64,000 nucleotides of DNA, from the NCBI GenBank assembly GCA_027068075.1, contig JAMOUJ010000005.1, positions 310,001-374,000 of the forward strand, read 5' to 3'. The stretch is from Candidatus Aminicenantota bacterium (GTDB lineage Bacteria; Acidobacteriota; Aminicenantia; S016-38). Each line of letters begins with the position of its first letter. Position 1 is the stretch's first letter. Below are positions 15,752 through 60,208 of the stretch, piece by piece. A model generated the notes under the pieces. The model worked only from the letters and a program-made list of their open reading frames with translations, did not search any database and had not been told where the DNA came from. The position numbers and the translations under genes are program-made.

Positions 15752-16392
15752 TTTTTTATCTCAGCATCCGAAGCCCGGAGGTAAAGGGGATAAATGTCCC
15801 TGGGATCTCTGATAACCTTCCCCTCGTCCCCCAGGGCGTATCCGATAAGGCCCACCTCGTAGGCCACGAAAAGGCTCCTTCCGGAAATCCTTGCCCCGGG
15901 TCGCCTCTCCTGAATTTTTTCCCGAAACCTCAGGGCCGCATCCCCTATGAAAACCTCCGCCTCCAGGGAAACGAACTCCTCCACCGGAAGGGCCCTGGGG
16001 CCATCAAGCCTCCTTCCATCCCGGTAAAGGGCGGAGTAAACCTCTCCCTTCTTGGCGTCTATCCCCACCGCCACCACACCCTCCTCCTTCAACGCCAGGG
16101 CGTCCAGGGAAACCACCGGGGCAAAGGGTTTTTTCAGGGAAAAACAAAGGGCCTTGGCGGTGGACAATCCCACCCTGATCCCGGTAAAGGAACCTGGTCC
16201 CACGGTGGCCGCCACCAGATCCAGGTCCTCCTTTCCGAGACCGAGAAAATCTAACAGGGCTTCCACCGCCGGCAGAAGGACCGAGGAATGAAGAAGGCCT
16301 ACATTAAGGTTCACCTCCCCCAGAAGTCGCCGGTCCTCCAGGACCGCCACCGAAGGATAGGGAGTGGATGTGTCCCATGCCAGAATTTTCAT
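15739..16392 (-). CDS. tsaB: tRNA t6A biosynthesis protein TsaB
   Basis: This 217-residue ASKHA-fold protein partners TsaD and TsaE in making N6-threonylcarbamoyladenosine at position 37 of ANN-decoding tRNAs. Signatures are AWDTSTPYPSVAVL at the N-terminus and VGPGSFTGIRVGLSTAKAL in the middle. It heads a minus-strand operon tsaB-rimI-binding protein-TonB receptor. The ATG at 16392 has no Shine-Dalgarno sequence, and a perfect TATAAT ends only 6 nt upstream, so translation is probably leaderless. It is divergent from uppS across a 30-bp gap. Confidence 0.95.
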   Translation of the reverse strand: MKILAWDTSTPYPSVAVLEDRRLLGEVNLNVGLLHSSVLLPAVEALLDFLGLGKEDLDLVAATVGPGSFTGIRVGLSTAKALCFSLKKPFAPVVSLDALALKEEGVVAVGIDAKKGEVYSALYRDGRRLDGPRALPVEEFVSLEAEVFIGDAALRFREKIQERRPGARISGRSLFVAYEVGLIGYALGDEGKVIRDPRDIYPLYLRASDAEIKKWGK

Positions 16393-57395: not shown

Positions 57396-58642
57396 AGAGG
57401 TGGGTCCGGGAAGCCGTTGACGAAAATTCCGGCTACCGCTTGGTTCTTGAACATCTTTCCAGGGAAATCCCAGGCGGCGATAATGTAGTTCTCGTGGCCC
57501 TGGGAAAGGCCTCCCTGTCCATGGCCAGGGCGGCCCAGGATGCCCTGGGAAAAAGGATAAGGCGGGGGCTTGTAATCTCAAACAAAGAGGGTCCACTGGA
57601 GGGCCTGGATCTTTACCTGGGTTCCCATCCGTATCCAGACGAGAAAAGCCTGAGGGCAGGGCAGGTCCTAAGGCATTTGGCCGTGGACTGCGGCGAAGAT
57701 GACACCGTTCTGTTTTTTATTTCCGGTGGGGCTTCCTCCCTGGCGGTTTTGCCTCATCCTCCCTTTAACCTGGAGGACCTGGCTTTTATTTACAAAAAAC
57801 TCTTGCTCCAGGGTGCCAATATTCACGAAATCAACACCGTAAGGAGGCATATTTCCCTAATTAAAGGGGGAAGACTGGCCACTGACTTTTACCCGGCAAG
57901 GGTCATCACCCTGGCCATTTCCGATGTCAAGGGGGATGTGCCCGAGGACATCGGTTCCGGTCCCACGGTTCCGGACCGAACCACCCGAGAAGAGGCCGTG
58001 GAGGTAATGAAAAGGTACGGACTTGAGGAATACATAAAGAAATTAAGGGAAGTCCCGGAAACCCCCAAGCCCTCCCACCCTGCCTTCAAAAAAACGAGTT
58101 TCGTGCTCCTTGCCAACACCCTGAAACTTCTCAGGGATGTGGAAAAGAAGGCCAGGGCAGAGGGTATAAGGACGCTTATCCTTACGGGCGAAGACGAGGG
58201 CGAGGCCAGGGAAGTAAGCAAACTTTACGCAGGAATAATCCTGGAGGTCCTGAGGAGTGGGAATCCCCTGCCCCCTCCTCTTTTGATCCTCAGCGGCGGC
58301 GAACTCACCGTCACCGTAAAGGGAAGCGGAAAGGGTGGTAGAAACACGGAGTTTATTCTCTCCCTTCTGCTTCAGACCCGGGGCCTGGAAGGAGGGTTTT
58401 GTGCGCTGAGCATGGGAACCGACGGGATAGACGGCCCCACCGATGCGGCGGGGGCGTTTTTCTGTGGGGATGCGTTTAATAGGCTCCGGGGAGTTGATCC
58501 CCGGGAGTATCTGGATAACAACGATTCCTACACCTTTTTTGAAAAATTAGGTCTTCTCCTCAAGACCGGGCCCACGGATACCAATTTAAGGGACATCAGG
58601 GTTTTCTGGATTGAAAAAGGAAAGGGCGTTGAGGAGGCATAG
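57380..58642 (+). CDS. Glycerate 2-kinase (GckA/MOFRL family)
   Basis: A 420-residue type II glycerate kinase that makes 2-phosphoglycerate from D-glycerate. The N-terminal DUF4147 domain has ALGKASLSMARAAQ, FISGGASSLAVLP and VSDVKGD-type ISDVKGDVPEDIGSGPT. The C-terminal MOFRL domain has GGRNTEFIL and CALSMGTDGIDGPTDAAGAF. It overlaps tmk by 16 nt, and its last 57 nt overlap the convergent nagA gene. It would feed glycerate into lower glycolysis. Confidence 0.92.
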   Translation: MFEKIKRWVREAVDENSGYRLVLEHLSREIPGGDNVVLVALGKASLSMARAAQDALGKRIRRGLVISNKEGPLEGLDLYLGSHPYPDEKSLRAGQVLRHLAVDCGEDDTVLFFISGGASSLAVLPHPPFNLEDLAFIYKKLLLQGANIHEINTVRRHISLIKGGRLATDFYPARVITLAISDVKGDVPEDIGSGPTVPDRTTREEAVEVMKRYGLEEYIKKLREVPETPKPSHPAFKKTSFVLLANTLKLLRDVEKKARAEGIRTLILTGEDEGEAREVSKLYAGIILEVLRSGNPLPPPLLILSGGELTVTVKGSGKGGRNTEFILSLLLQTRGLEGGFCALSMGTDGIDGPTDAAGAFFCGDAFNRLRGVDPREYLDNNDSYTFFEKLGLLLKTGPTDTNLRDIRVFWIEKGKGVEEA

Positions 58643-59422
58643 TTTTTTCAGCGCATCCTCCCCCAGGCCGGAGGACCTTAGTTTTTCCGCCTGATGGGGC
58701 ACTGTAAGCCCTCCCCCCATCAGCATTCCCTTCCCGTCCCTTATGGGCTCCGGACTGGGTCCCCGGGGAAGCATGTCCGAGACCAGGGAGAAGGAGGGGC
58801 CCTTTATTTTTAAAAGCAGTTTGATAAAATCCAGCGAGGTGTGAACAAGATCTCCTATTACCTCCAGGTGGACTCCCTCCAGGAGAAGTCCGGCTCCCAC
58901 GGCCCCTATTTCCCGGTGATGCAGCCCCCTGAGGGCGTTGGGAAAATGGGTGAAGTGCCTCACCCCCATCCGGTAGGCCCTCAATACATCGCCGTAGGTG
59001 GCGTTGCTGTGGCCCACCGAGGGAATTTTTCCGGCCTCCGTGGCCATGGATACCAAGAGGGTTGCTCCTTCCACTTCCGGGGCGAAGGTAAACATTTTTA
59101 TGCCGGGAAGGGAAAGGAAGAGGCGTATGTTTTCCCTCTCCGGGGTTAATATGTATTCCTTTTCCTGGGCTCCGGCCCTCCCGGGGCTTATAAAGGGGCC
59201 CTCTACCCGGAGGAAAGGAAAGATGGAATCGGGGTTTTTATCCCTGTAGGCCAGAAATTTTTTCCCTATTTTTTCCAGGTTTTCAAAGGAATCGTTCATG
59301 AGGGTGGGTATGGCGAAAACGATCCCCTGGGACCTCAGTTTTTCCTCCAGGGGGGCGAACTCGGCCTTCTGGAAACTATATCCCCAACCTCCGTGAATGT
59401 GAGGATCAGCGAACTTCTTCAT
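58586..59422 (-). CDS. nagA: Minimal N-acetylglucosamine-6-phosphate deacetylase-like protein
   Basis: A 278-residue amidohydrolase, about 100 residues shorter than usual NagA. It begins directly at the first metal motif (FADPHIHGG), so the N-terminal beta-sandwich strands are absent. The catalytic landmarks remain: EGPFISPGRAGAQ (metal Glu), VGHSNATYGDVL and THFPNAL (metal His residues), and LVSDMLP with the catalytic Asp. The ATG is the first possible start and is separated from the tRNA-Lys 3' end by only eight Ts, with no ribosome-binding site. Its 3' end overlaps the glycerate kinase gene by 57 nt antiparallel. Confidence 0.83.
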   Translation of the reverse strand: MKKFADPHIHGGWGYSFQKAEFAPLEEKLRSQGIVFAIPTLMNDSFENLEKIGKKFLAYRDKNPDSIFPFLRVEGPFISPGRAGAQEKEYILTPERENIRLFLSLPGIKMFTFAPEVEGATLLVSMATEAGKIPSVGHSNATYGDVLRAYRMGVRHFTHFPNALRGLHHREIGAVGAGLLLEGVHLEVIGDLVHTSLDFIKLLLKIKGPSFSLVSDMLPRGPSPEPIRDGKGMLMGGGLTVPHQAEKLRSSGLGEDALKKLCLLNALSFFNPENPDVP

Positions 59423-59430
59423 AAAAAAAA

Positions 59431-59503
59431 TGACCCGCCGGGGACTCGAACCCCGAACCCACGGATTAAGAGTCCGTTGCTCTACCTGTTGAGCTAGCGG
59501 GCC
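59431..59503 (-). tRNA. tRNA-Lys (anticodon CUU)
   Basis: 73 nt fold into a full cloverleaf: acceptor GGCCCGC pairing with GCGGGTC (one G-U), D arm GCTC/GAGC, anticodon stem ACGGA/TCCGT with loop CTCTTAA (anticodon CTT), and T arm CGGGG/CCCCG around TTCGAGT. The discriminator base is A. CCA is not encoded; eight Ts follow and then the nagA ATG. A TAAAAT box ends 6 nt before the mature 5' end. Confidence 0.96.
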
Positions 59504-59509
59504 AGGGTT

Positions 59510-59515
59510 ATTTTA
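59510..59515 (-). promoter_or_regulatory. tRNA-Lys -10 box
   Basis: TAAAAT on the minus strand is followed by six bases (AACCCT) and the mature tRNA 5' end. The predicted start is at or within one base of nucleotide 1 of the tRNA, leaving almost no 5' leader. Confidence 0.55.
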
Positions 59516-59530
59516 CCACAAAAACAGGGT

Positions 59531-60208
59531 TCAAAAAAGGAGGGAAAGTCCTCCCACCAGCAGGGCCTTCAACAGCCAGACTCCCAGAGCCACGGAGAGC
59601 CCATCCTTTTTTCTGAGGTTAAAGGCCCCGGCCAGGGCCAGACCGCATGCCACGGCAGCCCAGAGACCGATAAGGTCAAAGGCCTGGAGAAACCTTCCTA
59701 CTTTGGAAAAACTGGAAACGGGAAGAAGAAGGGCCAGGGAGGTGGAAACTCCGATGGTAGTTCCCTTTAAAAATATGATGAGACTCTTGACGAGGGAACC
59801 CAGGGAATAACTTATAAAGGTGGAATGAGTGTATACCGATAGGACTCGGACGAAATTTCCTTCGGGGGTGAAAAAGCGAAGGCCCAGAAGGAGAAGGAGG
59901 GAGGTCACAAAAAGGGAAAAGGCATAGGCGAAGGCAATTCCCAAGGAGGTTCTCATTAAAATGGTTTTATTGGGGGCATTTATCATGCTTTCCCACCTTC
60001 CCGCCTCCTTTAACCTCTGGACCACCTCCGGTTTTTCCACCTTTAATTTCTCCATGGATTCGTGGAAGGCCTTGGGGGCATAGGGAAGGGTAAAGGCCAG
60101 GGTAAGGGCGAGGATCAAAAAAGCCGGAAGAAGCCAGGAGGGTTTTTCCCGGAGGCGTTTTCCCAGGGACGAGGGATCTGTTACGATCAGAATAAGGTTA
60201 CGAATCAT
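59531..60208 (-). CDS. Yip1-family integral membrane protein
   Basis: A 225-residue protein with about five hydrophobic segments and the family-type start ([29 protein letters not shown]). A charged periplasmic or cytoplasmic loop near residues 45-75 and a [29 protein letters not shown] segment follow. Bacterial Yip1 proteins have no firm function. It overlaps the MacB-type ATPase gene by 11 nt and occupies the place where an FtsX/MacB-type permease gene would be expected. Confidence 0.75.

Follow-up and report, generated by a model that had tools for sequence, protein, structure and literature searches.

A tRNA-Lys gene eight nucleotides ahead of a NagA-like gene, and recurrent tRNA-gene junctions lacking Shine-Dalgarno motifs, in a member of the Aminicenantia

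Can a bacterial tRNA gene supply both the promoter and the processed 5′ end for the protein gene behind it? The question is raised by a locus in the window, by which we mean the whole stretch of 64,000 nucleotides of Candidatus Aminicenantota DNA analysed, where a tRNA-Lys(CUU) gene is followed, across a run of Ts, by the start codon of a gene for a NagA-like protein. Its features, all on the minus strand and in the order of transcription, are:

59531..60208 (-), Yip1 domain protein gene at the end of the preceding operon (ORF of 225 aa; Pfam Yip1, E 3e-13)
59533..59555 (-), terminator-like hairpin and T run (T6) at the end of the Yip1 gene, from a terminator scan
59510..59518 (-), extended -10 box TGG-TAAAAT of the tRNA promoter (TAAAAT at 59515-59510)
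59509-59504 (-), 6-nt spacer AACCCT between the -10 box and G1
59431..59503 (-), tRNA-Lys(CUU) from G1 to the discriminator A73, without encoded CCA, from its fold
59423..59430 (-), T8 tract of exactly eight Ts, the tRNA 3′ trailer, from the sequence
59420..59422 (-), ATG start codon of the NagA-like gene, invariant in four species
58586..59422 (-), short NagA-like gene of 278 aa, from ORF and homology

This anatomy agrees with a preliminary description of the locus, which had placed the mature 3′ end of the tRNA 8 nt from the ATG with only Ts between (exact to the base), had seen no ribosome-binding site (inspection of the sequence before the NagA-like ATG indeed finds no Shine-Dalgarno, SD, motif) and had located a -10 box 6 nt ahead of the tRNA 5′ end, leaving the tRNA almost no leader. 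The tRNA folds with a minimum free energy of -34.7 kcal/mol (z -3.4), and the ARAGORN call at 59504-59430 is one base too long at either end. Judging from the 6-nt spacer, transcription probably starts at G1 or within a base of it. A second promoter at the tRNA end, between tRNA-Lys and the gene, was sought and not found, nor is there room for one; no -10 box stands about 12 nt upstream of the NagA-like ATG. On the upstream side, the hairpin and T run probably separate the Yip1 operon from the tRNA promoter; congeners have a similar C/G-rich stretch with T6 at the end of the Yip1 gene, and the region has no more hairpin sites of this kind than are expected from shuffled sequence.

The arrangement, whose conservation the preliminary description had proposed to check, is kept throughout the genus: tRNA-Lys, T8 and ATG are invariant in 4/4 congeneric species while the protein is only 67-70% identical among them, and the junction is thus not due to chance. 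The promoter stretch TGGTAAAATA is likewise unchanged in the four species. Between two congeners, differences in the NagA-like gene fall on codon positions 1/2/3 in the proportion 65/47/138 over 278 codons, which points to purifying selection. The linkage of tRNA-Lys to the NagA-like gene is confined to this one genus, other sequence lying behind tRNA-Lys in the sister genus (genome G004).

The protein itself aligns with the NagA structure PDB 1o12 (E 2e-44), scores 133.8 bits against TIGR00221, below the curated equivalog cut-off of 225.65, and has no Pfam match at E<=0.001. An N-terminal segment present in orthologs from the sister genus and from other families, and amounting in the latter to some 30-50 residues, is absent here, so that tRNA-Lys now occupies the place where it was encoded. 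The earlier label nagA therefore stands as a statement of homology, not of a full NagA; we read the 278-aa product as a shortened, NagA-like protein with putative NagA activity. Its truncation relative to orthologs in other families, its score under the NagA cut-off and the genus-specific linkage would also fit an account, restricted to this locus, by which the ORF is a decaying remnant joined to tRNA-Lys by deletion and not expressed; we hold this very improbable, as the ORF is intact (about 275-278 codons) at 67-70% identity across four species, its changes are mostly at third positions and its ATG is invariant. The upstream frame, read by eye, stays open for 30 codons through tRNA-Lys and holds no ATG, GTG or TTG; translation through the tRNA was rejected on this ground, an ATT at -9 having been weighed and thought unlikely.

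The NagA-like junction does not stand alone, the genome having about 20 of the kind. Our survey covered all 43 tRNAs, 31 of which end their tRNA cluster (terminal tRNAs), and counted a junction where an ORF of 85 aa or more begins with an ATG on the same strand shortly downstream of a terminal tRNA. Such an ORF begins 8-17 nt downstream of 17/31 terminal tRNAs, and TTG starts lie 5-10 nt downstream of three more, giving a total of 20/31 with spacers of 5-17 nt; by comparison, 6.9% of random window points have such an ORF at most 20 nt away (P 2e-12 against 17/31). Most genes behind the tRNAs could be assigned by Pfam; they encode or correspond to 1) signal peptidase I, NTPase_1, YitT, tilS, secE, an NtrC-type regulator, thrS and surE, 2) acylphosphatase, folE2, a Zn-ribbon protein, a galU-like nucleotidyl transferase, an sppA-like peptidase, prs and trigger factor (tig), and 3) an SRP54-type GTPase, which on our own reading is ftsY. 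In folE2, trigger factor, NTPase_1, surE and prs the domain begins at residues 1-4, from which we conclude that the start codons are correct. An own TATAAT-like box lies within 24 nt upstream of 24/43 tRNAs. These boxes end 5-16 nt (mostly 7-12) ahead of the tRNA, a proximity that would leave 5′ leaders of only about 0-5 nt.

The starts behind tRNAs are set apart by their lack of SD motifs, found at 0/17 tRNA-proximal ATG starts in this genome and at 1/48 over three genomes. At ordinary starts, taken from gene calls made in sampled stretches by a simple codon-usage method, GGAG/GAGG-type motifs occur in 109/227 cases, with a peak 5-6 nt before the start. The 0/17 compares with 31/71 for first genes (P 4e-4), with 78/156 for operon-internal genes (P 3e-5) and, as a short spacer by itself gives an SD motif little room, with 13/21 for CDS-CDS junctions offering the same 6-20 nt (P 6e-5); when only spacers of 11-20 nt are considered, the counts are 1/20 for tRNA-proximal and 3/6 for CDS-CDS starts (P 0.03).

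The genome also has SD-less starts of another kind. A TANNNT hexamer lies 5-9 nt before the start of 18/71 first genes, where shifted controls give 3-5, and we read this class as the mark of promoter-made leaderless mRNAs. Examples in the window are the starts at 16392, 32980 and 36242, so that the leaderless starts reported earlier from elsewhere in the window find support and have counterparts in the rest of the genome. At the tRNA-proximal starts of the three genomes, a -10-like hexamer occupies the leaderless position in only 3/48 cases. Were the RNA cut at the tRNA 3′ end, the predicted leader would be 8 nt here and 8-17 nt at the other junctions; leaderless cut-offs in use set the 5′ leader at 8-10 nt at most (PMC4247193, PMC4681348), and mRNAs with 8-17 nt ahead of the start codon are not leaderless in the strict sense.

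Junctions of this type are most frequent in the family to which the genome belongs (f1). An ATG junction follows 16/30 terminal tRNAs in a genome of the same genus (G003) and 15/30 in one of another genus of f1 (G004), against 7/27 in the sister family f2 (G012), 3/26 in G037, 0/24 in G022 and 0/24 in another class of the phylum (G060). Judged by blastp, 18/20 of the genes lie behind the same tRNA in G003 and 16/20 in G004, such orthologous junctions being non-independent observations. In 142 genomes of the class, a pattern search for a T-arm, T-run and ATG gave 40 matches in seven f1 genomes, compared with 11 for a composition-matched control pattern ending in GTA. Single tRNA-T-run-ATG junctions were also seen in families f4 and f7 (e.g., G112:C87:8017-8052 and G114:C5:37533-37564), one of them, GTAGCGCTGCTTTTCTTATTTATG, being common to five genomes of one f4 genus; since these recur in several species, f1 is not the only family with the arrangement.

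Eight tRNA-gene pairs are common to f1 and G012, and at five of these orthologous junctions f2 has an SD motif that f1 lacks. In G012 it lies in a 17-28 nt spacer before surE, prs, tig, secE and the Zn-ribbon gene. The surE spacer illustrates the difference, reading ttttttattttaattccaaggaggactcTTG in f2 and tttttttattttATG in f1, with the T tract the same and the SD segment gone. The direction appears to have been loss of the SD motif in f1 and not gain in f2.

The T tract is not peculiar to junctions with genes. In the first six bases after f1 terminal tRNAs there are on average 3.9 Ts where a gene follows and 3.6 where none does (P 0.37), against 2.6 inside tRNA clusters (P 0.0025 and 0.008). 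Being strong with or without a following gene and weaker within clusters, the tract is a sign that a tRNA unit ends there; the idea that the spacer is adapted to the gene was rejected, as T content does not differ at terminal tRNAs with no gene behind them. It is probably an element of tRNA 3′-end formation or of termination, and as such would attenuate the gene. In the fold of tRNA-Lys, a pair between U(-1) and A73 brings the acceptor stem directly up to U8, in the geometry of an intrinsic terminator, and stem and U8 could act as one, but the arms are some 60 nt apart and a short-loop scan did not list the stem. At this locus, T8 is likely to be both a leaky termination element and the 8-nt leader of the mRNA.

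These observations bear on an explanation in which stem and U8 are simply the tRNA's own terminator, tRNA processing does not make a functional mRNA 5′ end, and the gene is close through genome compactness, living on low-level read-through or another promoter. The gene-independent T content and the pairing of U(-1) with A73 are what it would expect, and the genome is compact, with 128/187 co-directional CDS pairs overlapping or at most 5 nt apart; unlike these CDS-CDS neighbours, none of the 48 tRNA-to-ATG spacers in three genomes is shorter than 6 nt. The explanation has more difficulty with the presence, behind tRNAs, of essential genes such as ftsY, secE, prs and thrS with no other promoter in the 6-19 nt available, with the absence of SD motifs in a genome that uses them, and with the conservation of tRNA-gene pairs across genera. 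We consider it rather unlikely.

The reading we favour, and think probable, is that the tRNA and the gene are co-transcribed from the tRNA promoter and that tRNA 3′ processing frees a short-leader, SD-less mRNA, which is translated by leaderless-type initiation. In family f1, the tRNA gene would thus act as promoter and 5′ processing signal for the protein gene behind it. RNA polymerase would start at or beside G1 and transcribe the tRNA, and the fraction passing the U tract would continue into the gene, the U tract attenuating the tRNA promoter. A nuclease would then cut the tRNA out at its 3′ end, a step that we infer because all tRNAs require a 3′ end. The resulting mRNA would open with a short, U-rich, SD-less leader, here the 8 nt of UUUUUUUUAUG, on which ribosomes would initiate by a leaderless or short-leader route, as at genes with a -10 box 6-7 nt before the start. 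The earlier proposal that tRNA processing creates a nearly leaderless message gains, in its short-leader form, from the recurrence at about 20 tRNAs, from conservation and from the SD-led junctions found in their place in the sister family; the strict product would keep an 8-nt leader.

Alternatively, the joint RNA might stay uncut, the tRNA serving as a structured 5′ UTR beside which the ribosome enters, with the U-rich spacer binding ribosomal protein S1. The spacers are U-rich and unstructured in the fold, as this would require, but a tRNA would be sacrificed in every mRNA made, tRNA maturation is obligatory and the U-richness is not special to junctions with genes; we deem it improbable.

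As to the nuclease required by the favoured, processing-based reading, the RNase Z-type cleavage named in the preliminary description finds no backing: no protein reaches the RNase Z cut-off (TIGR02651) in this genome or in 30 relatives, the nearest candidates being metallo-beta-lactamase proteins of uncertain kind, among them two whose ORFs lie in loci L154 and L155. RNase J, a possible trimmer of U8, was not found with TIGR00649, and the RNA of RNase P is present in the genome. A divergent endonuclease may serve to make tRNA 3′ ends in this class. Encoded CCA is missing from 28/43 tRNAs.

In animal mitochondria, the mRNAs that tRNA excision leaves behind have a very short leader or none and lack an SD motif. 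The term 'tRNA punctuation' occurs in passages of PMC10941002 and PMC9361522. The junctions described here are alike in that tRNAs abut protein genes at many places (20/31 terminal tRNAs), but differ in that every unit possesses a tRNA promoter of its own and mostly a single junction, in the coexistence of SD-led genes, in the U-rich spacers of 5-19 nt, and in that cleavage is our proposal; with 24/43 tRNAs carrying a TATAAT-like box of their own, the genome-length polycistronic precursor of mitochondria is not matched. The mixed tRNA-mRNA operons known from E. coli are few and have longer leaders with SD motifs. A passage of PMC6511841 names metY-nusA as one of them. There, and by our reading here too, protein genes share a transcript that begins with a tRNA gene, whereas here we count about 20 junctions per genome, and these are SD-less.

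Leaderless genes are well known in bacteria (e.g., Deinococcus-Thermus and Actinobacteria). In Acidobacteria, they are predicted at about 13% (PMC3160421). Promoter-made leaderless genes, a class also found in this genome, resemble the present junctions in having a start without SD motif close to, or at, the actual or proposed 5′ end of the RNA, but in them a -10 box some 12 nt ahead of the start fixes this end, which here would be made by tRNA processing. In the archaeon Thermococcus kodakarensis, a tRNA-Lys lies in the 159-nt 5′ leader of TK0306 (PMC4247193), similarly co-transcribed ahead of a protein gene, as we suppose for the present junctions, but as a single described case with a far longer leader. 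The literature searched, in which most subscription papers are missing, so that absence from it is weak evidence of novelty, holds no description of tRNA-made SD-less mRNAs as a routine bacterial arrangement, nor of such junctions in the context of leaderless genes in Aminicenantes.

On a wider proposal we are evenly divided, namely that this bacterial lineage has placed a group of housekeeping genes under tRNA promoters and made tRNA 3′ processing a routine source of SD-less, short-leader mRNAs, a counterpart of mitochondrial punctuation that would couple genes with roles in secretion, protein folding and the modification of tRNAs to the synthesis and maturation of tRNAs. If it holds, a sizeable number of mRNAs for essential proteins owe their 5′ ends to tRNA maturation, as in mitochondria, and the expression of such genes is coupled to tRNA production. 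A further question is which nuclease forms the 3′ ends of tRNAs in a class seemingly without canonical RNase Z. Families f1 and f2 offer a natural comparison, the same tRNA-gene pairs often being SD-led in f2 and SD-less in f1, so that the presumed switch to leaderless-type initiation can be traced junction by junction.

A separate case is a gene for an Rrf2-type regulator (L003:1007-1390, minus strand) behind tRNA-Glu(UUC). A TATAAT belonging to the gene itself precedes its GTG start by six nt, and from this box it is predicted to be a promoter-made leaderless gene starting in the tRNA trailer; the arrangement is conserved in G000, G003 and G001.
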